In this document: piece after piece, positions 5,435 to 16,388 of the stretch
Position numbering within the stretch: the stretch's first letter is position 1
How the letters are laid out: each line of letters opens with the position of its first letter
The notes under the pieces: model-generated
Databases searched by the model: none
What the model saw: only the letters and a program-made list of their open reading frames with translations
Told to the model about the DNA's origin: nothing
Made by a program: the position numbers and the translations under genes
Origin: a virus
DNA: 20,155 nucleotides
Strand: one strand, 5' to 3'
Virus record (IMG/VR): IMGVR_UViG_3300033992_000650
Span: 1-20,155 of that record

Positions 5435-5917
5435 ATGAACTTTAACACTCTGGTTGCTTCGGCGGTTGTCACCCTCTCGCTCACTTCTATTGCTTCGGCT
5501 CAGTGGTCTAACAGCGGTGGTGGACTCAATATTGGAATTGGCGGCTCATACGGTAAGTTCAAGGACAAGATTAGTGAGACAGGCGCAAACGGACAAACCG
5601 TTAGCCGCACTCGCACCGTTACGAACAACGACTTTCGTTGGGGCGTTGGCATGGGTGGGTACTCCAACACCAACAACTACGGCGGTGGCGGCTATGGCTA
5701 CGGCGGGGGTGGCTTCTACGGCGGTGGTGGCTACGGTGCACAAGTAATGCCGTACTACGGTGGTGGTTACGGCGCACAAGTAATGCCGTACTACGGTGGT
5801 GGCTGTTATCCTGTCGTGGTTCCGTACTCCCCGTTCACTGGCACCTTCGGCAATCCGTGCTATGCTCCACAGGTGTTTGCTCCTGCGGCAGTCTGCCCTC
5901 AGTTTATTGTTCGCTAA
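5435..5917 (+). CDS. Secreted Gly/Tyr-rich low-complexity protein
   Basis: A 160-residue protein with AAGGAG about 7 nt upstream. Residues 1-22 form a typical Sec signal peptide: short polar start, hydrophobic core (LVASAVVTLSLTSIA), A-S-A cleavage before Gln. The mature part begins with a beta-like region (LNIGIGGSYGKFKD), then a Gly/Tyr tract of about 45 residues, two copies of a 12-residue unit (GGGYGAQVMPYY) and a Pro/Val-rich end with three cysteines (GGC, NPC, AVC), which could form disulfides after export. There is no second membrane segment and no lipobox. The protein should reach the periplasm or cell surface. Gly/Tyr proteins of this type form coats or adhesive layers. Signal peptides are rare in T4-like phages, so host origin by transfer is plausible. 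Confidence 0.72.
   Translation: MNFNTLVASAVVTLSLTSIASAQWSNSGGGLNIGIGGSYGKFKDKISETGANGQTVSRTRTVTNNDFRWGVGMGGYSNTNNYGGGGYGYGGGGFYGGGGYGAQVMPYYGGGYGAQVMPYYGGGCYPVVVPYSPFTGTFGNPCYAPQVFAPAAVCPQFIVR
5723..5794 (+). repeat. Tandem 36-bp repeat, two copies
   Basis: Copies at 5723-5758 and 5759-5794 differ at 2 of 36 positions and encode the repeated 12-residue unit of the secreted protein. Both differences are synonymous pyrimidine changes. Confidence 0.85.
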
Positions 5918-6273: not shown

Positions 6274-6355
6274 GGGAGAATACTCAAGTGGACAACGAGG
6301 CTTGACTGTAAATCAAGCGGCATAGCCTTCGGGGGTTCGAATCCCTCTTCTCCCA
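6274..6355 (+). tRNA. tRNA-Tyr (anticodon GTA)
   Basis: Acceptor GGGAGAA (6274-6280) pairs with TTCTCCC (6348-6354). Anticodon arm CTTGA-CTGTAAA-TCAAG. It has the long variable arm expected of bacterial tRNA-Tyr, a TTCGAAT T-loop and discriminator A. Confidence 0.92.
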
Positions 6356-6358
6356 TTC

Positions 6359-6430
6359 GCCGCCTTAGCACAGTGGTAGTGCAGTTGATTTGTAATCAAC
6401 AGGTCATCGGTTCGAATCCGATAGGCGGCT
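6359..6430 (+). tRNA. tRNA-Thr (anticodon TGT)
   Basis: Acceptor GCCGCCT (6359-6365) pairs with AGGCGGC (6423-6429). Anticodon arm GTTGA-TTTGTAA-TCAAC gives TGT, reading ACA. T-arm ATCGG-TTCGAAT-CCGAT, discriminator T. Four nt after tRNA-Tyr, so one precursor is likely. Confidence 0.92.
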
Positions 6431-6473
6431 TTGTTAAGACACGGTTCAACTACTCTACAAATGAACATAGGAT

Positions 6474-6677
6474 ATGGAAACACTGGCATTTACTCTTTAT
6501 GGAATCGGAGCAATAGCCTTCACATCAGCGGCTACGCTAAAATTGTACGCACACGCATACGCTCGTGGTTATGAAAACGGCAAGCACTATGGATTTTCTG
6601 ATGGGTTGAATCACGCTAGGCTGAAAACTGTAAAGCCGCATAATTCATCTCGCAAGCAGATGGTTGCTGCTGTCTGA
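6474..6677 (+). CDS. Small single-span membrane protein
   Basis: A 67-residue protein with TAGGA shortly before ATG 6474. Residues about 3-24 are a hydrophobic helix (LAFTLYGIGAIAFTSAATLK). The rest is a Tyr/Gly/His and basic cytoplasmic tail (ARGYENGKHYGFSDGLNHAR), a Y-x-x-G-x-x-x-G-x-x-D-G pattern seen in small phage membrane proteins. Function unknown. It lies downstream of the tRNA cluster and ends head-on with the next gene with no gap. Confidence 0.6.
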   Translation: METLAFTLYGIGAIAFTSAATLKLYAHAYARGYENGKHYGFSDGLNHARLKTVKPHNSSRKQMVAAV

Positions 6678-8042
6678 TTAAACCAATAGCAAATCAGCAG
6701 TCAAGATTGGTCTGTTCATCACCGATAGAATGTCGGTGTTCAGACCAATTCTATTTTCCGAAACAGTTGTTTCGTTAAGATATACACGAACCCTATTCTG
6801 CTTCAGAGTTTCATCGGAAGTAAATTTCACGGTGAATGAGTGGGCGTTAGACGCAGCAGTTCCTGCTCGGTAATTAATTAGTAGAGTTTCACCCGCAAAC
6901 AGTGCTGCAACAGCAGTCTTTGTTTGCGTGTTTGGTGATGTGATCTCTAGAATATTTGTTCCTGTAGGAATAATTGAAGTGCTGCTGAATTCTGCTGTAG
7001 TGTAGTATTCGGTAATTGCACCAAGAGAAATACCTGTAACTACAAGTGGAGATCCTGTGTCTGTACTAGTACGACCAGTTAGTGTGCAGGTTACTGTTCC
7101 TAATACAACTCCCTGTTCGGTATCAGGAGAGAAGAACGAGAAGGTTGCGCCTACGCTTGTGGCAGCACCAAAGGAATTCCATTGCTGTACAGCAGCCGCA
7201 CTATCGTCTGCAAGAGAAATTGTGGTTGAAGCACCAACAGAAACCAATACACGAATGCCTTCAGTCTGTATTGAGTTTGTGTCTCCACCAGCAAGAAACT
7301 TACAGTTCTGTAGAGTGCCACCACCAATGGGTGTGTTCTCGCTTTCCCATGAATAAAATTCAGTAATACTTGAGGAGTTTTGTTCTCCTCTAATCAGCAC
7401 TGCGAGCAGTGAAGATCCTCTAGAATCCCATATATTTAAGAACGGGGTGAGATCAAATTTCACGATTGATCCACTCCACGAACCGATTGGTATTATTTCA
7501 GATGCCGCTGGTTCTGCGTCACCGCCTTCAATAGTCCATCCTGTTGCAGCGGCTTCGGATGGCTTGTACCAAGACACAGACGAGTCTATAGTGGTGTCTA
7601 GAGGCAGCAGGACGGCTTCTAGAAGCCCTCCTGAAGTTCCTGTGGATCGTGTCAGCGTGAGAGTAGCATTCCCGATTGTATATGGACTACCTGCGGTATA
7701 GCCTTCTATAGTACTCACAGCAGCAGAAAAATATTGGCGTGGATTCAGCAGTAGCACTGTTCTAAATTCTTGTGTTTTCGTTCCACCAACCTTCAACATA
7801 TTTCTAGAACGATACAGTAAGTTGCCGCTGTCCCCACCCGTGTAGTATCCAGAAATTATTTTTGTTGGTTGCTGCACATCACTCAGTTCAATAAACTTGG
7901 AACTGAACGAATCAAATGCTTTTATCTTTACTTCTGCTGAAAGATTCGTAATATAGGTATCGCTGTTTCCGTCTGATCCATATACCGTTGCTCTCACGGT
8001 CTGTGAATTAGAGTAATTATTGCGATAACTAGAGTTAAGCAT
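6678..8042 (-). CDS. Virion fibre-type protein with DNRLRE/CBM96-like domain
   Basis: A 454-residue protein. The start is the ATG at 8042, with AGGAG about 6 nt upstream; the frame is open further back but that part overlaps the previous gene. It is Ser/Thr/Gly-rich with beta-strand periodicity throughout. Residues about 120-250 resemble a DNRLRE/CBM96-type module: LTLTRSTGTSGG, then the paired SVSWYKPSE...GWTIEGG, a KFDLTPFLNIWDSRGS segment (the usual V-T-x-x-V-x-x-W motif) and EFYSWESENTP (F-x-S-R-E type). Such modules bind polysaccharide and occur in surface enzymes and phage receptor-binding proteins. It starts 10 nt after the larger gene upstream, so the two are co-transcribed. Probably a fibre or adhesin; no catalytic motif seen. 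Confidence 0.6.
   Translation of the reverse strand: MLNSSYRNNYSNSQTVRATVYGSDGNSDTYITNLSAEVKIKAFDSFSSKFIELSDVQQPTKIISGYYTGGDSGNLLYRSRNMLKVGGTKTQEFRTVLLLNPRQYFSAAVSTIEGYTAGSPYTIGNATLTLTRSTGTSGGLLEAVLLPLDTTIDSSVSWYKPSEAAATGWTIEGGDAEPAASEIIPIGSWSGSIVKFDLTPFLNIWDSRGSSLLAVLIRGEQNSSSITEFYSWESENTPIGGGTLQNCKFLAGGDTNSIQTEGIRVLVSVGASTTISLADDSAAAVQQWNSFGAATSVGATFSFFSPDTEQGVVLGTVTCTLTGRTSTDTGSPLVVTGISLGAITEYYTTAEFSSTSIIPTGTNILEITSPNTQTKTAVAALFAGETLLINYRAGTAASNAHSFTVKFTSDETLKQNRVRVYLNETTVSENRIGLNTDILSVMNRPILTADLLLV
6706..6749. other. Nested inverted repeat at a convergent gene junction
   Basis: Outer arms ATTGGTCTG (6706-6714) and CAGACCAAT (6741-6749) enclose inner arms CACCGA (6720-6725) and TCGGTG (6733-6738), giving 15 potential base pairs in 44 nt. 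It lies in the last codons of the minus-strand fibre gene and just beyond the plus-strand gene's end. There is no long T-run on either side. Confidence 0.7.
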
Positions 8043-8052
8043 AGTGCTCCTA

Positions 8053-10506
8053 TTACGAAGCGTAGAACGAGAAGGTGATTCCTGTTCCCGTGTTGTGCGG
8101 TGCAAATCCAACCGAATACGGTGGATAAAATACATTGATCATGTCAATGTTGTCTACTTCAAGGAATAGTTCATCTCCGTGATACATTACATACGAATAT
8201 ACTCCAGCAGTAAATCCGTATGTTGATGCGTCTGTTACAGAACCAACACACATAAATTCATTTTGTGATGAGTTGGCTCCTGTGGCAATACGCGAAACCT
8301 TGATACGAACACCCGTTGCACAGGTAAATCCTGCGTTAGAGTTGTATTCGGTTAGGTTCTTTGCCACATATCCTGCAACATTTGTACGAGCCATGAACAA
8401 CGGCTGTGTTGCGTTAGAATCAATTGCCACACTAACTGAACCACTTGATACAGTATTTGCAAGAGTCTGCAACTGTGTGTTTACAGCATTCTTGACCAGT
8501 GAATAAATTGAAAGTGAATCAGTAAAGTCAAAAGCACCAACACTAACTGTTGGATCGTAAAGAGCCTTCTTTGCAGCAATCAAAAAGTCTGTATTAGTCT
8601 TGACTTGGGAAATGGTGGCATTCACTGTGGATGTTGGAGTATCAAGATTTGCCAATTCGATTGGCATAAATCCACCCGAATATCCCTTGACGATTACTGG
8701 TCCGTTGGCAGTGTCTCCTGCAACCCACAATCCGTATTCTGCACTCGTGGTTCCCGTGACAGGAATGGGAGCATACGATGGAGCAGTAATACCAATCTGT
8801 GCGCTGAATGTGGCGTAGGCGTTAAAAGAGAACCCTGAGTTAACAAGGTACATATTAACTGCGGCACCACACCAACCTGCACCCGTAGTACCACTAACTT
8901 GTGTTAGTGTTCCCGTTGAACTCACTGCTGCATTCATGTATGTTGGAACAGTAGAGAAAGACAGGCTGTCTGCTGCTCCCTGACCAACAATAGTAACGGT
9001 GTCTGTGGTGTAGTTTAGATCACGAATATCAAGATCCGTAGCAGATACAGTTACACCCGTTATGGTGGACACATTCACATTCAGTGCATTGTTGGTGGAA
9101 TAGACTGCTTCAATAGCAGCCGTTGAACCAGCAAAAGCGTACAAGGATGTTGGTACAGTGCTTTCGACTCCTGTGCCGTATACAGTAATATTATCTGTGG
9201 CTGCGGTAATACCGCGAATACTAAAGTCGGAAGCCTGAACATAAACAGCCGTTGCACCAGTTACTCCAAATATTCCAAGATTGGAGAAGGACGATACTGT
9301 TACGGGAAGAGGGGCACTTACAGTGATACCAACAGGGTATCCACTTGCGATGCCTTGAATTCCCACATAATCTATTCCAGCGGTACTGCCAAGAGTAGTT
9401 CCACCGTACAGGTTTCGAATATCTAAATCGGTTGCAGATACGGTCAGAGTTCCAACTGTAATTCCTACAGCCACTCCTCCTGATACACCCACAACGGTTA
9501 GAGATGTTCCTGTTGTACCCACAATGGTTGTGGCAAGACTATAAATTGCAGATGGAGCAAGGAATTCATATCTTCCCCATGAACCGCAAAGACCCACTGG
9601 AAGGGGCGCGGAAGCCTGAACATAAACAGCCGTTGCGCCTGTTACTCCGAATATTCCAAGATTGGATAAGGATAGATTAGCGAAAGACGATACGGTTACA
9701 GGAATAGGAGAACTTACGGTGATACCAACAGGGTATCCGCTTTCAATTCCTTGAATACCAACATAGTCTATTCCAACAGTGCTTCCACTAGAGGTTCCAC
9801 CGTATAGATTTCGAATACTGAAACTGCTACCCACAACATTCAGCGTTCCAACTGTAATACCAACAGGGTATCCACTTTCGATTCCTTGAATACCAACATA
9901 ATCTATTCCAACAGTACTTCCACTAGAGGTTCCACCGTATAGGTTTCGAATACTGAAACTGCTACCCGCAACATTCAGCGTTCCAACTGTGATGCCTACA
10001 GCAACTCCTCCTGATACACCAGCAACATTCAGCGTTCCAACCGTGATGCCTACAGCAACTCCTCCTGATACACCAGTAACGGTGAGAGATGTTCCTGTTG
10101 TGCCCACAATGGTTGTGGCAAGACTATAAAATCCAGATGTAGGCAGAAATTCATATCTTCCCCATGAGCCAGTAAGACCCACTGGAGCAACATTCAGCGT
10201 TCCAACTGTAATACCTATAGGAACTCCTCCTCCCGATACACCCATAACGGTAAGAGATGTTCCTGTGGTGCCTACAATGGTTGTGGCAAGACTGTAAATT
10301 CCAGATGAAGCAAGAAAATCATAGTTTGCCCATGAGCCAGAAAGACCCACTGGAAGGGGCGCGGAGCCACTTGCATATATTACTGTGTCGTCTGCACCGT
10401 AGGCAATCTTGACAATTTGATGATGTGCGGTATTGACATAATCGCTGGCTATGGTATAACTAATACCATCAGTAACAATGTTGTAGTTGTCGCTAGTCGC
10501 TGCCAT
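8053..10506 (-). CDS. Large repeat-rich virion structural protein
   Basis: An 817-residue protein starting at ATG 10506 with GCGGAG about 7 nt upstream. It is very rich in Gly, Val, Thr, Ser and Ile and poor in charge, as in fibrous beta-structured phage proteins. Repeats include VGITVGTLNV (many copies), an 18-residue tandem unit (GVSGGVAVGITVGTLNVA), a 45-residue tandem unit (begins GSSFSIRNLYGGTSSGSTVG) and a 3-copy block ending in SLATTIVGTTGTSLTV. The last 150 residues are non-repetitive (TCATGVRIKVSRIATGANSS onwards) and look like a folded beta-sandwich cap. Together with the next gene it forms a two-gene fibre or appendage operon, divergent from the gp33-like gene. Exact virion location unknown. 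Confidence 0.62.
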   Translation of the reverse strand: MAATSDNYNIVTDGISYTIASDYVNTAHHQIVKIAYGADDTVIYASGSAPLPVGLSGSWANYDFLASSGIYSLATTIVGTTGTSLTVMGVSGGGVPIGITVGTLNVAPVGLTGSWGRYEFLPTSGFYSLATTIVGTTGTSLTVTGVSGGVAVGITVGTLNVAGVSGGVAVGITVGTLNVAGSSFSIRNLYGGTSSGSTVGIDYVGIQGIESGYPVGITVGTLNVVGSSFSIRNLYGGTSSGSTVGIDYVGIQGIESGYPVGITVSSPIPVTVSSFANLSLSNLGIFGVTGATAVYVQASAPLPVGLCGSWGRYEFLAPSAIYSLATTIVGTTGTSLTVVGVSGGVAVGITVGTLTVSATDLDIRNLYGGTTLGSTAGIDYVGIQGIASGYPVGITVSAPLPVTVSSFSNLGIFGVTGATAVYVQASDFSIRGITAATDNITVYGTGVESTVPTSLYAFAGSTAAIEAVYSTNNALNVNVSTITGVTVSATDLDIRDLNYTTDTVTIVGQGAADSLSFSTVPTYMNAAVSSTGTLTQVSGTTGAGWCGAAVNMYLVNSGFSFNAYATFSAQIGITAPSYAPIPVTGTTSAEYGLWVAGDTANGPVIVKGYSGGFMPIELANLDTPTSTVNATISQVKTNTDFLIAAKKALYDPTVSVGAFDFTDSLSIYSLVKNAVNTQLQTLANTVSSGSVSVAIDSNATQPLFMARTNVAGYVAKNLTEYNSNAGFTCATGVRIKVSRIATGANSSQNEFMCVGSVTDASTYGFTAGVYSYVMYHGDELFLEVDNIDMINVFYPPYSVGFAPHNTGTGITFSFYAS
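9722..9991 (-). repeat. Tandem 135-bp repeat, two copies
   Basis: Copies of 135 bp at 9722-9856 and 9857-9991 differ at only a few positions and encode the 45-residue unit of the structural protein. A third, diverged version lies at about 9321-9460. Confidence 0.82.
9968..10075 (-). repeat. Tandem 54-bp repeat, two copies
   Basis: Copies at 9968-10021 and 10022-10075 are nearly identical and encode the 18-residue unit. The first overlaps the end of the 135-bp repeat pair, so the arrays arose by nested duplication. Confidence 0.82.
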
Positions 10507-11891: not shown

Positions 11892-14690
11892 TTATGGCAT
11901 AATAGAGTATGCTTGCATCTGCTTGATGGTTGGTTCGTTGTTACGAATTCGAATATCATCATTGAAATTGTTTGTGGTGTTGCTAATCTTGTTCTGCACA
12001 TTTGCAGTGTTGTTTGTGTTACCACCTGTAGCCGTGGGCATATTACGAGCCTCGTTCAATCCGTTCTGTTCTGCTGTGGCTTGAGCAACCATTCTACCCA
12101 CAGTTGTGTTTGCGGTAGCAGGATTCGTAACCTTCCCTTCCACTGTAGTACTGCTTGATGCACCACCTTCTGCCGCTGTCCCCGTTGCACTTGTAGCAGC
12201 AGCAGTAATTGCGTTTTCTGCTTCTTTCCCTGTTTTCTGATCTTCGGTTCCGCCTACTTCAATCAGAGAACCAACACCAGGAATGGAAGCCACCATGTCG
12301 TAGATACCCTTGCCGCCAATTTGGTCTGCAAGCATTTCTGCTAATTTTCCACCAACCCATCCTCCACCAAGAGTTCCTACTAAGGTTCCAATTCCTGGAA
12401 CGGGTATGAGTGTTCCTAGTGCACCACCACCAATAGTTCCGAGTGCTTGACCAAGAGTTCCAACAATAGATCGACCTATTTTTTCTTTCTTTTCATCTAC
12501 TGATAGTTCAGGATCACTTTTAATAGATGCAATATCTACAGCCCCCATTACTGTTGATATAACGGCACCAAGACCAGGAAAACTAACAATGCTCTTCGCA
12601 ACCTTTCCTGCATTTTTTCCAATAAAGGAACTTAATCCTTTCACTGGATTCATGCTGCTTAGTGCTGATCCTGCTTTTGCTGCAAGGTTGCTAAAGAATC
12701 CACCACCAGTACTAGCAACACCTGATGCTGCTTGACCTGCTCCACCAAGAGCACTTTTTCCTAGATTCATTGCTCCACCAACAGCACTCTTTCCTAGATT
12801 CATTGCTCCACCAACAGCACTCTTTCCTAGATTCATTGCTCCCTTAGCAACACCTGATGCTGCTTGACCTACTTTACCGATAGTACTCTTTCCTAGATTC
12901 ATTGCTCCCTTGGCAACATCAGTATTTGCAATACTACTGATAGCACTCTTGCTTAGATTTGCTACTCTACCAACAGCACTCTTGCCTAGATTCAGTGCTC
13001 CCTTGGCAACACCTGATGCCGCTTGACCTGCTCCACCAAGAACACTCTTACCTAAATTCATTGCTCCGCCGAGAACACTCTTACCTAAATTCATTGCTCC
13101 CTTAGCAACACCTGATGCTGCTTGACCTACTTTACCGATAGCACTCTTACCTAAATTCATTGCTCCCTTAGCAACACCTGATGCTGCTTCACTTACTCCA
13201 CTAACAGCACTCTTGCCTAGATTCAGTGCTCCCTTGGTAACACCTGATGCTGCTTCACTTACTCCACTAACAGCACTCTTGCCTAGATTCAGTGCTCCCT
13301 TGGTAACACCTGATACCGATTTTCCTATTGAGGCAGTATCTTTATACAATGATGTTGTTTTAAATAACTCTAGGGATTTGGCTCCTCCAAATTTAGAAAT
13401 CAATCCGCCAGCACCACGCAGTCCCTTCACTGCCAATCCGCCAGCACCACGAAGTCCCTTCACTGCCAATCCACCAGCACCACGAAGTCCCTTCATTGCT
13501 AGACTTGGAGCACCCAATAGTGCACTACCAATGGATTCTGCACCGCTTGCAATACTAGACATGATGCCTCCACCACCACCCATTCCTCTTAATTTCTCAA
13601 GAAGAGAGGACAACATTCCTCCACCTTTTTTTGCTTCTCCCTTGATAGGCTTTTCTGCACCAAGTCCTTCTAGTTCAGATTCTCTTTTTTGGAGTTCGTC
13701 TGTATCGCTTGTATCGCTTTCTGATGCAAATTTGTTTTGCAGTAGTTTTCGTATTTGAGAAACTTCTTTGAGTAGTTCGCCAAGAGTGGACGAAGTTCCT
13801 GTTTGTGGAGATGCGGTTGAAGATTGTGTTGATGCCGTTCCTGCCAACATACCAGGAATATCGGCAGCAGATGTTCCTCCTATTTCGGCAAAACCTCTTT
13901 TTCCACTAACATTAAGACTTTCTCCACTGCGACCCTTACGGGCAATTTGCTTCTGTAGAGATCCTGTATAGCGTTCGATATCTTCGCGATCTTCTCTTTT
14001 CTTCTTTAAGAATTCGCCAAGCAATCCGCCAACAACAGGAATTTTTGATGCAATTTTTTCGGGAATTGTTTTTCTGAAGTCAGAAGCCTTCTCAGCGAGA
14101 AATGCTTTGAATGATGACTTCTTCTTTAATTGCTTTTCAATAGGAGAAATAATTTCTTCTAATTTTGTAGCAATATCTCCTTGATCACCCTGTGTATTTG
14201 CAGCAAGTTCTCTTATGAATTTAACTTGGGCATAGATGCGTTTGGCTTGATCGTGAGAAGCAGTTAACGCTGATTCTGATATAGTAACTGCTTCTTCCAT
14301 CAATTGATATGCTGCTGCACCAGCAGGATCTTCTTGATTGAATTTATCTCGGTTTGATCTGATGTAATCTTCTACAACAGAACGAACACCCTTCTGTCCT
14401 TTCATTCCCACTACATAATTTTCTAATTCACTACTTTCAAATCCCATCTCGTTTCGTTGTTTTATTAACGATTCAAGTAATCCAATTTGGTTGGCTATTT
14501 CTTTTTCTGATTGGACATCAGTAACAGCAGGGGTACTAGCAACAGCACTAGACGCTTTTGCGCGTGAGGCTCGAACATTACCTACTTTTTGTTCTGGCGG
14601 CAGTGATGCGAATCTGCCATTTTGGCGTGGCTGTCGTGCAGCCAACCCACGGCGAATTTCTGATTCGGTCATTTCTGTTTTTTTAGCCAT
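11892..14690 (-). CDS. Probable tail tape-measure protein
   Basis: A 932-residue protein with AGGGAG 5 nt before its ATG at 14690. The tape measure sets tail length and is ejected ahead of the DNA (T4 gp29, 590 residues). Residues 1-330 are charged and helical. About 360-400 is Gly-rich and hydrophobic. From about 396 come three 11-residue units (GLRGAGGLAVK), then a long array of 11- and 22-residue units (GVAKGAMNLGKSA plus VGQAAS-like linkers) to about residue 660. Next are Gly/Ile-rich hydrophobic segments (GTLGQALGTIGGGALGTLIP) that could insert in membrane, and a Thr/Asn-rich tail. Size, Ala/Gly repeats, hydrophobic segments and the place right after the chaperone-like frameshift locus all fit. 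Similarity to gp29 is not visible by eye. Confidence 0.65.
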   Translation of the reverse strand: MAKKTEMTESEIRRGLAARQPRQNGRFASLPPEQKVGNVRASRAKASSAVASTPAVTDVQSEKEIANQIGLLESLIKQRNEMGFESSELENYVVGMKGQKGVRSVVEDYIRSNRDKFNQEDPAGAAAYQLMEEAVTISESALTASHDQAKRIYAQVKFIRELAANTQGDQGDIATKLEEIISPIEKQLKKKSSFKAFLAEKASDFRKTIPEKIASKIPVVGGLLGEFLKKKREDREDIERYTGSLQKQIARKGRSGESLNVSGKRGFAEIGGTSAADIPGMLAGTASTQSSTASPQTGTSSTLGELLKEVSQIRKLLQNKFASESDTSDTDELQKRESELEGLGAEKPIKGEAKKGGGMLSSLLEKLRGMGGGGGIMSSIASGAESIGSALLGAPSLAMKGLRGAGGLAVKGLRGAGGLAVKGLRGAGGLISKFGGAKSLELFKTTSLYKDTASIGKSVSGVTKGALNLGKSAVSGVSEAASGVTKGALNLGKSAVSGVSEAASGVAKGAMNLGKSAIGKVGQAASGVAKGAMNLGKSVLGGAMNLGKSVLGGAGQAASGVAKGALNLGKSAVGRVANLSKSAISSIANTDVAKGAMNLGKSTIGKVGQAASGVAKGAMNLGKSAVGGAMNLGKSAVGGAMNLGKSALGGAGQAASGVASTGGGFFSNLAAKAGSALSSMNPVKGLSSFIGKNAGKVAKSIVSFPGLGAVISTVMGAVDIASIKSDPELSVDEKKEKIGRSIVGTLGQALGTIGGGALGTLIPVPGIGTLVGTLGGGWVGGKLAEMLADQIGGKGIYDMVASIPGVGSLIEVGGTEDQKTGKEAENAITAAATSATGTAAEGGASSSTTVEGKVTNPATANTTVGRMVAQATAEQNGLNEARNMPTATGGNTNNTANVQNKISNTTNNFNDDIRIRNNEPTIKQMQAYSIMP
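12733..13315 (-). repeat. 33/66-bp repeat array in the tape-measure gene
   Basis: Degenerate tandem units encoding the 11-residue segment GAMNLGKSAVG or the 22-residue pair GVAKGAMNLGKSAIGKVGQAAS. Exact 33-bp neighbours occur around 12775-12840, and near-identical 66-bp units at about 13160-13310. One irregular stretch (12910-12980) breaks the pattern. Confidence 0.82.
13405..13503 (-). repeat. Three tandem 33-bp repeats
   Basis: Units at 13405-13437, 13438-13470 and 13471-13503 are near-identical and encode G-A-G-G-L-A-V-K-G-L-R. They have the same 11-residue length as the main array but a different sequence. Confidence 0.85.
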
Positions 14691-14719: not shown

Positions 14720-15612
14720 TCACAATGGTTTTCTGCCGCTTGCCTGTTCCTTCTCTTTTTTCAAATGAGAAAGTAGCATTTGTATGTATACCTCTCGTTC
14801 CCAAGGTATCATGTCCTCAATTTCTGCCAATGAGTACTTGTGGTTCTGCATCAGCATGAAATTGAGTTGAAAATACGCCCCCAAATCGTTATGACAGAGG
14901 GCTATTGAAAAAAATCAGATACGCTTTTCAACTCCACCAATACTGTTTCCTGACAGGTGGGACAGGTATATTTGAAAGAGTAGTACAGTTCGGGAATGCT
15001 CTGCATGAATTCCATGATTTGAGCAAACTGATCTGGCAGCATATTGTCAACGAAATCGGACAACTCTTGTGGATCAATGTCGCTGTGCTGATACACCTGA
15101 TCACCCATGATGATTCCGTCCACGCATCGCTTGGCTAGTTCGAATGCAATCTCTACTTCGTCTTTGTTGTAGTCAATATCGTGGATGGACGGATATCGTA
15201 GAATAATAGTTACATCATCTGTAATCTTGATGTTTGGATCCACCGTGGGCTTGGGTGTTTGCTTTACGGTTACTTCATCTAGTTTAATTTTTATATTGAT
15301 TGACTTGGAGCACTTGGTGCAGGTCACTTGTGGCTTGACTTCTTCTCCCACACTCTTCCCACGAATCTGTAGGAATGCGTATTCGGAATCTGCTGCACAA
15401 ATACGGCGAGTATCTAACTGGCTATTGGTGCACGCCAATATGACATTTCGCATTGCCTCGTTAATCTGATTCAGATTCTTGGACTGCAATGCTATAAGAA
15501 GGATCTTTTCCTCCTTTACAACAAAAGGTCTAAACTTTGTGGTTATTCCAGAGACTGGCAAAGTCATGGAATACTGCGGCAGGGTAGAGTTCACTAGATT
15601 CAATCGGGTCAT
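14720..15612 (-). CDS. gp26-like protein extended by -1 frameshift (putative tail assembly chaperone)
   Basis: A predicted 297-residue product: 235 residues in the gp26-like frame to 14908, then 62 residues in the -1 frame ending at TGA 14722-14720. The -1 frame has no start codon with a ribosome binding site. Its sequence is clearly protein-like: a hydrophobic stretch (AYFQLNFMLM), then KYSLAEIEDMIPWEREVYIQ, and a Lys/Glu-rich end. The D-M-I-P-W-E-R-E-V-Y segment resembles the short second domains of phage tail assembly chaperones (and short T4-like frames annotated as gp51). Lambda G/GT and P2 E/E' make the long form by -1 slippage directly before the tape-measure gene, the arrangement here. 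Alternative: a separate ORF from the internal ATG 14857, which lacks a ribosome binding site. Confidence 0.68.
14877..14914 (-). promoter_or_regulatory. Programmed -1 frameshift signal
   Basis: Slippery heptamer T TTT TTT (14914-14908) is in the correct phase (GAT TTT TTT CAA TAG in frame 0). Five nt later a hairpin can form: GCCCTC (14902-14897) with GGGGGC (14882-14877), 6 bp with one G-T and a 14-nt loop. The zero-frame stop is the second codon after the slip. Confidence 0.7.
14902..15612 (-). CDS. 26: gp26-like baseplate hub / tail assembly protein
   Basis: A 236-residue protein of the T4 gp26 family (T4_baseplate type; T4 gp26 is 208). The ATG at 15612 is preceded by AAAGGA. The N-terminal region (LPVSGITTKFRPFVVKEEKILL) and the helix SKNLNQINEAMRNVILACT match the family pattern. 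Two C-x2-C pairs, in QVTCTKCSKSI and KYTCPTCQETV, can form a zinc ribbon that brackets the C-terminal helical domain (DIDYNKDEVEIAFELAKRCV). T4 gp26 is classed as a baseplate hub component. Its position before the tape measure, and the frameshift signal at its end, suggest a tail-assembly-chaperone role instead or in addition. A late-type box lies 27 nt before the start. Confidence 0.8.
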   Translation of the reverse strand: MTRLNLVNSTLPQYSMTLPVSGITTKFRPFVVKEEKILLIALQSKNLNQINEAMRNVILACTNSQLDTRRICAADSEYAFLQIRGKSVGEEVKPQVTCTKCSKSINIKIKLDEVTVKQTPKPTVDPNIKITDDVTIILRYPSIHDIDYNKDEVEIAFELAKRCVDGIIMGDQVYQHSDIDPQELSDFVDNMLPDQFAQIMEFMQSIPELYYSFKYTCPTCQETVLVELKSVSDFFQ

Positions 15613-15638: not shown

Positions 15639-15646
15639 TATTTATC
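15639..15646 (-). promoter_or_regulatory. T4-late-type promoter box for gp26-like/tape measure
   Basis: GATAAATA on the minus strand, 26 nt before the gp26-like start codon. It overlaps the stop codon of the preceding gene. Confidence 0.45.
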
Positions 15647-16388
15647 ACCGAACTATGCTGTTTGTCTGTAACGCATTTGCTAAATCTGGATCATATATTC
15701 CATTCACGGTTCCGTCAGATCCCACTCTGTAAAATTGTCCAGGAGCGGGTGAGTATATTGCAAATGATTTTTCGGGTGATGGTGGTCCATTTAGAGCAAC
15801 ATCAGCGGGTGAATTTGGTCTGGGTAGTGGTGATGTGTTTGGTTGAACTGTGACAGGAGAGTACTTTCGATAGGCTATAGTGATATCTTGTCGTACAAAT
15901 TCATCGTTCTTGTCGTAGGCTAATTGTATATCTCCAATTGCTTTGGGATAGGCTTCTTCCACCAATACTTGATACTTAACCGCACTTGACCTGTCTAATA
16001 CACTAATGATTAGTGGTGCAGTATATTGATCGTAGTAGTTGAACTTGTAGTTATTCTGACTGCACACCGCGTCCATCCATGCTTCAAAGAATGCTCGTTC
16101 ACGGAGATCGTCCGAAACAATGACAGACATTGTTAGTTCCCCGCTGTACAGTGGTTCATACGGCATATTTCTTGCTGGTCCATAGAATCTGTATGGCGTA
16201 GTAGAAAATCCGCGACCTGGAACGGTTATTGCATCACATCGAACAGCCAACTGTCGTGCGGAGTCGTTGCTTATAGATGTAAATGCAGGTGGATAGTTAA
16301 TCAGTACTTCAAATCTGTTGCTGTACGCAAGACCTGTGGCAAATACACTGCTGAATATCTCATTAATATTTGATGGGACTTGTGACAT
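15645..16388 (-). CDS. 54: Tail-tube-fold protein, gp54-like (tube initiator)
   Basis: A 247-residue protein with GAGG 7 nt before ATG 16388, abutting the previous stop. It belongs to the gp19/gp54 tube fold: YSNRFEVLINYPPAF at the start, AITVPGRGF and YGPARNMPYEPLYSGELTMS in the middle, FFEAWMDAVCS helix, FNYYDQYTAPLIISVL, and AIGDIQLAYDKNDEFVRQDITIAY near residue 190. That last segment aligns by eye with the VGELQLDWDSNNEI end of T4 gp19. T4 gp54 (320 residues) starts tube polymerisation on the gp48 platform; gp19 (163) is the tube itself. Being next to the baseplate genes favours gp54, but a tube subunit cannot be excluded. The last 50 residues are a Pro/Ser-rich extension. Confidence 0.62.
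   Translation of the reverse strand: MSQVPSNINEIFSSVFATGLAYSNRFEVLINYPPAFTSISNDSARQLAVRCDAITVPGRGFSTTPYRFYGPARNMPYEPLYSGELTMSVIVSDDLRERAFFEAWMDAVCSQNNYKFNYYDQYTAPLIISVLDRSSAVKYQVLVEEAYPKAIGDIQLAYDKNDEFVRQDITIAYRKYSPVTVQPNTSPLPRPNSPADVALNGPPSPEKSFAIYSPAPGQFYRVGSDGTVNGIYDPDLANALQTNSIVR

Follow-up and report, generated by a model that had tools for sequence, protein, structure and literature searches.

A candidate programmed −1 frameshift joins gene 26- and gene 51-type domains in the tail gene cluster of a T4-like myovirus

Are the gp26-type protein of a T4-like myovirus and the short gp51-type frame that follows its gene two separate hub proteins, or do they represent two products of a single frameshifted gene? 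We analyzed this question in an entire IMG/VR virus record of 20,155 bases (here called the window). An earlier note on this DNA had proposed that the gp26-type protein and the "51" frame are the two halves of a frameshifting tail assembly chaperone, and the phase of the slip site, the selection acting on the second frame and the gene order support this proposal. We put the probability at roughly 0.93 that the window encodes the tail assembly chaperone of a T4-like (Kyanoviridae-type) myovirus, at a locus where a programmed −1 frameshift makes TAC-N (236 aa) and TAC-NC (297 aa).

The gene 26/51 locus of the window

The gene order in the window is tail tube (phrog_45), gene 26, gene 51 frame and a 932-aa open reading frame (ORF) (Table 1). 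The ATG of gene 26 is preceded by the Shine-Dalgarno sequence AAAGGA. Its product matched PF12322 over the full length, with residues 12-235 (190 bits with a cut-off of 24.5; E 5e-56; Pfam), and it also matched the baseplate hub family phrog_150 (E 1e-56; PHROGs). The AlphaFold model of the short form had a mean pLDDT of 93. The 932-aa ORF has a good Shine-Dalgarno sequence (AGAGGGAG). It yielded zero profile matches in Pfam, PHROGs and NCBIfam; its candidacy as tape-measure protein, put forward in the earlier note, thus follows from position and length. This ORF contains many near-identical internal repeats of the KGAMNLGKSAVGG / GKVGQAASGVA type.

Table 1. Coordinates of the tail gene cluster and of the elements at its candidate frameshift site
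Feature	Position in window	Strand	Basis
Tail tube protein, directly upstream of gene 26	15645..16388	−	phrog_45, E 8e-38
TAC-N, gene 26-like ORF, 711 nt, 236 aa, T4_baseplate family; predicted short chaperone form	15612-14902	−	PF12322, phrog_150
−1-frame TGA abutting the heptamer on its upstream side	14917-14915	−	sequence
Slippery heptamer T_TTT_TTT in X_XXY_YYZ phase with gene 26, suited to −1 tandem slip	14914-14908	−	sequence and phase
Spacer CAATA, 5 nt, from heptamer to hairpin	14907-14903	−	sequence
0-frame stop TAG ending the short form, one codon past the slip	14904-14902	−	sequence
Candidate stimulatory hairpin, 5 nt past the heptamer, GCCCTC (14902-14897) / GGGGGC (14882-14877), with a small inner stem	14902-14877	−	folding
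TAC-C, gp51 family, 62 codons plus stop (TGA 14722-14720); predicted to be slip-fused to TAC-N as the 297-aa TAC-NC	14720..14908	−	phrog_634
Tape-measure protein candidate, 932 aa, next gene, presumed chaperone client	11892..14690	−	position and length

On the minus strand, the 3' end of gene 26 reads AGC GTA TCT GAT TTT TTT CAA TAG CCC. All elements that had been described for this site, namely an in-phase T TTT TTT, a 5-nt spacer, a 6-bp hairpin and a 0-frame stop one codon on, are present in the sequence, and the joined frames give 235 + 62 = 297 aa, exactly the predicted length of the fusion. The stem closes at 14877, which coincides with the limit of the coordinates in the earlier note. 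The window holds 42 ORFs with 80 or more codons, and in none but gene 26 do the last 8 codons include an in-phase heptamer. Since a TGA in the −1 frame lies directly 5' of the heptamer, no start upstream of it is possible for this frame. The fold of the hairpin had an energy of −12.4 kcal/mol, which was reached by 6 of 200 shuffled sequences (z −2.3); when the 161-nt context was folded, only 1 of 200 shuffles was as good (z −3.1).

The −1 frame encodes a conserved gp51-type domain: it matched phrog_634 with 86 bits (E 5e-24; PHROGs), and the match begins at the second residue. Furthermore, phrog_150 extends beyond the length of gp26, and the −1 frame of the window aligns with positions 241-280 of this family, because T4 gp51 belongs to phrog_150 too. 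Possible internal starts in the frame are TTG 14884, ATG 14857 and ATG 14851. None of them lies earlier than codon 10 and none has a good Shine-Dalgarno sequence, whereas the conserved part begins at codon 2. The claim that the frame lacks a start of its own is therefore correct for the region before the conserved part and too broad for the frame as a whole.

From the sequence, the phase and the gene order seen at this locus, together with the family assignments, conservation and selection on the −1 frame, we infer slippage, its rate and a chaperone role as follows. Most ribosomes translating gene 26 would stop at the TAG and produce TAC-N (236 aa). A minority would slip back by one base on T_TTT_TTT, with the P- and A-site Phe tRNAs re-pairing on TTT TTT, and in the lineage of the window the hairpin located 5 nt downstream would aid this slip. 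The slipped ribosomes would read 62 more codons, giving TAC-NC (297 aa). By analogy to lambda gpG/gpGT, many TAC-N and few TAC-NC molecules may then coat the tape-measure protein until tail-tube subunits polymerise around it.

Outside the cluster, the window contains six tRNA genes on the plus strand between 54 and 6430 (Ile, Gly, Lys, Glu, Tyr, Thr). Several minus-strand ORFs that overlap tRNA genes (e.g., 2227-2472 and 6313-6489) look like tRNA translation artefacts. An 817-aa protein (8053-10506, minus strand) with long repeats (GITVGTLNV, SGSTVGIDYVGIQGIESGYPV) was without a family match in Pfam and PHROGs; this protein and its 485-aa neighbour (6678-8135, minus strand) are possibly fibre or adhesin proteins. 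A 160-aa ORF on the plus strand (5435-5917) has an apparent signal peptide and Gly/Tyr-rich repeats (YGGGGYG, AQVMPYYGGG), which is unusual for a phage.

Conservation of the slip site and selection on the −1 frame

By tblastn, 683 phage records were found to encode a relative of gp26 and 510 a relative of the −1 half, with cyanophages in the majority. The conservation analysis was based on 219 distinct loci (IMG/VR and annotated phages) that include the stop of gene 26 as well as sequence downstream of it. The phase of the T run, for which the earlier note had asked whether it is conserved, was kept almost throughout: T_TTT_TTN lies in phase at 217 of the 219 loci, and a −1 frame of 40 or more codons comes after it. 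The heptamer was TTTTTTC in 126 cases, TTTTTTT in 62, TTTTTTA in 27 and TTTTTTG in 2, and the exceptions were T4 and Vibrio phage D510. At nearly all loci the distance between heptamer and 0-frame stop was either 3 nt (190 loci) or 0 nt (22 loci), and the median length of the −1 frame in related loci was 65 codons. Outside this count, Synechococcus phage S-SCSM1 (L257, NC_070962, 1987-2010) keeps the heptamer and carries an 11-nt insertion after it, so that the second half no longer continues in the −1 frame and the junction is broken. This insertion reflects an error in the sequence or else a genuine change to separate initiation.

For the next comparisons we used 94 divergent representatives, which share less than 70% gp26 identity. 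A long ORF on the same strand follows in 79 of them. The first slip codon was TTT in all 94, although TTC makes up 26% of the Phe codons elsewhere in these genes, and the codon preceding it (AGT, GAT, AAT, TCT and others) likewise had a final T in all 94. If the sequences are treated as independent, which they are not fully, the chance of such fixation is about 1e-18 for TTT and about 1e-20 for the final T. The slip codons are fixed beyond what the protein requires.

We then compared synonymous and non-synonymous codon differences in the part of the −1 frame that lies before any possible start, using 55 non-overlapping pairs. In the −1 frame, 124 synonymous and 85 non-synonymous differences were counted. 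In contrast, the other two frames of the same segment gave 19/173 and 20/171 synonymous/non-synonymous differences. We conclude that the −1 frame is under purifying, protein-level selection ahead of any possible start codon, in agreement with the earlier description of a protein-like frame without its own start. Protein-level selection on a segment that no start codon can reach argues that slippage is used, and we consider this the strongest single argument for it.

These data also bear on the possibility that gp51 is a separate short protein, made from an internal ATG or TTG in the −1 frame, and that the T run is an accident of codon usage. In line with this possibility, the majority of GenBank annotations treat gp51 in this way; it is given as its own coding sequence (CDS) in P-HM2, S-RSM4, Mosig, S-ShM2 and Sf-CH8, and in the window an internal ATG is available at 14857. 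However, other records leave gp51 without annotation, the conserved and selected −1 sequence starts immediately behind the slip, ahead of all possible start codons, and the slip codons are fixed more strictly than the protein demands. Moreover, a Shine-Dalgarno-like motif precedes the first internal ATG in only 6 of 93 representatives, compared to 71 of 94 for gene 26, and a start upstream of the heptamer within the open −1 stretch was found in 1 of 94 and was absent in the other 93. A separately made gp51 is therefore very improbable. The earlier note had named, as evidence against frameshifting, relatives in which the −1 frame is a gene with a start and a ribosome binding site of its own. 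Most relatives have no such gene; a minority of lineages has an ATG overlapping the 0-frame stop, and in these the slip site is kept.

A fusion mRNA could alternatively be made by transcriptional rather than ribosomal slippage on the T run, which comprises seven T in the window and up to nine in a few relatives. Typical polymerase slippage needs runs longer than six T, however, and in 67 of the 94 representatives the run has only six, which favours ribosomal slippage. Further, it is the heptamer phase and not the run length that is conserved. A GC-rich stem located 4 to 6 nt past the heptamer, the spacing expected for an effect on the ribosome, was found in 25 of 94 representatives, but only in 8, 7, 0, 2 and 1 at the control offsets. 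Taken with these observations, transcriptional slippage is exceedingly unlikely.

The enrichment of stems at ribosomal spacing, seen group by group, suggests a stimulator that is common, lineage specific and not obligatory for ribosomal slippage. The hairpin of the window, whose conservation had been put up for checking, was retained in relatives with at least about 67% gp26 identity and was degraded in more distant ones (L035, L040, L094, L095), so that the expectation held for the near relatives only. With the same distance from the heptamer, P-HM2-like phages and other groups of cyanophages have perfect stems that are particular to them. We also considered a universally conserved hairpin and rejected it, as the mean z was only −1.2 for the 94 representatives and a stem is absent in many of them.

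T4 and lineages with an overlapping ATG

In T4, gene 26 lies on the opposite strand from gene 51 and ends with GAG TTC TTT GAG TTA CTA TAA; no slip heptamer was found at this end. T4 gp51 aligns with phrog_150 along residues 3-248 and with phrog_634 along residues 147-246 (E 1e-23 for phrog_634), which indicates a gp26-like domain and the same C-terminal domain in one frame, i.e., an N+C protein. T4's own group has two separate genes, for gp26 (TAC-N) and for gp51 (in-frame TAC-NC), as cited in PMC10885494 and as these sequences show, whereas in the window the pair takes the frameshift form, with a hairpin. Judged by these sequences, T4 is a natural control, in which the slip site is missing where the fusion is in frame. 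In the course of these comparisons we observed that gp26 of MG010123.1, named Staphylococcus phage SAJK-IND, is 98.6% identical to that of T4; the record is thus likely to be a coliphage sequence that was mislabelled or contaminated.

Slip site and an ATG overlapping the 0-frame stop occur together in KVP40-type Vibrio phages, in Menderavirus and in some Rhizobium phages, including Y68. The overlap reads GAT TTT TTC GTA TAATG in Vibrio R10Z, GGC TGATG in Moby and CAC TGATG in Rhizobium Y68. The slip site is present without an overlapping ATG in Aeromonas phages Ahp1 and phiAS5, Cronobacter phage LPCS28 and Agrobacterium phage OLIVR5. In Vibrio D510 and K452, the TAATG is present and the canonical heptamer is absent.

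The overlaps raise the possibility that both modes are used, with slippage giving TAC-NC and stop-start coupling at TAATG or TGATG giving free TAC-C, for example in KVP40-type Vibrio phages. The ATGs of R10Z, Moby and Y68 are compatible with this, as is the TAATG that D510 and K452 keep without a canonical heptamer. However, the overlap was found in 9 of the 94 representatives, corresponding to 9 of 41 A-ending stops, which cluster in a few lineages, so that relatedness or base bias may account for it; we do not claim it as a general second mode. By eye, no Shine-Dalgarno sequence precedes the KVP40-type ATG, and the window, where the stop context is TAG CCC, does not offer such an overlap at all. 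As an explanation of the locus studied here, dual use is extremely improbable.

Slippage alone thus remains our reading for the window. For T4-like phages in general, a tentative and rather doubtful extension is that an adjacent gene pair delivers the C-domain by three routes, besides the separate duplicated gene of T4: slip only (the window, cyanophages, pelagiphages), slip plus ATG (KVP40-type Vibrio phages, Menderavirus, some Rhizobium phages) and ATG only (Vibrio D510 and K452), with lineage-specific hairpins tuning the slip rate. If this were true, the fused form would not be strictly needed in every lineage.

Relation to known chaperone genes and consequences for annotation

Like lambda G/GT, the locus of the window lies between tail tube and tape measure and combines a −1 slip near the end of the first ORF with a short second domain that lacks a start. 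Its order corresponds to lambda V-G-T-H and is also that of P2, FII-E-E'-T. The lambda slip site, G_GGA_AAG, is unlike the T_TTT_TTT of the window. P2 is a contractile-tail phage in which the T-rich slip site of E/E', T_TTT_TTG, is again located before the tape measure. Sequence homology was not detectable, however. The search for kinship of either half with the G/GT or E/E' families was negative, since no homology to the chaperones of lambda, P2 or HK97 was found by Pfam, NCBIfam, PHROGs or PDB sequence search. A PDB fold search with the AlphaFold model of TAC-N gave no significant match; the HK97 chaperone 2ob9 appeared only at rank 31, with a non-significant E of 3.6 and 3.2 A over 50 columns. 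A viral fold search with the same model returned other gp26-like proteins and uncharacterised phage proteins. The locus of the window probably works like G/GT, and we regard this link as functional analogy rather than demonstrated common descent.

The abstract of the work by Vladimirov and coworkers reportedly names T4 genes 26 and 51 and describes frameshifting as conserved in several T4-like groups. Gene order, together with the published assignment, suggests a chaperone role for the gp26/gp51 pair. According to PMC12846349, T4-like phages carry poly-T −1 frameshift signals in their TAC-N genes (Vladimirov, Gautam & Davidson, Virology 2022, 566:9-15), and as cited in PMC10885494, some T4-like phages instead carry one short and one fused long gene (Vladimirov et al. 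2022). As far as these citing articles relate it, the genes, the domains and the poly-T −1 signal are the same as in the window. Hence, the idea of a frameshifted 26/51 chaperone is right but already published, and the locus of the window is an additional member. Pseudomonas phage Adele (Vandenendeviridae/Andersonviridae) is similar according to the part of PMC12846349 that treats it, in that the 3' end of TAC-N carries a T-rich motif for a −1 frameshift and the second ORF is mis-annotated, but there the motif is GTTTTT and the phage families are different.

What our analysis adds is this further member and the finding that "gp51" is systematically mis-annotated in the genomes of cyanophages and their relatives. 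The joined product was annotated in 0 of the 20 non-T4 record regions that we examined. In these regions the second half either appeared as a gene in its own right, in many cases with an internal start, or was omitted, and one record was wholly without annotation. Under the frameshift reading, the "baseplate hub subunit gp26" and the "hub assembly catalyst gp51" of T4-like cyanophages and their relatives would be two products of one frameshifted chaperone gene. Because gp51 is never annotated there as the joined product, profiles and core-gene lists based on "gp51" are misleading. In cyanophages, gp51 was described as only about 20% as long as gp51 of other T4-like phages (Sullivan et al. 2010), a remark that a frameshifted C-domain would explain.
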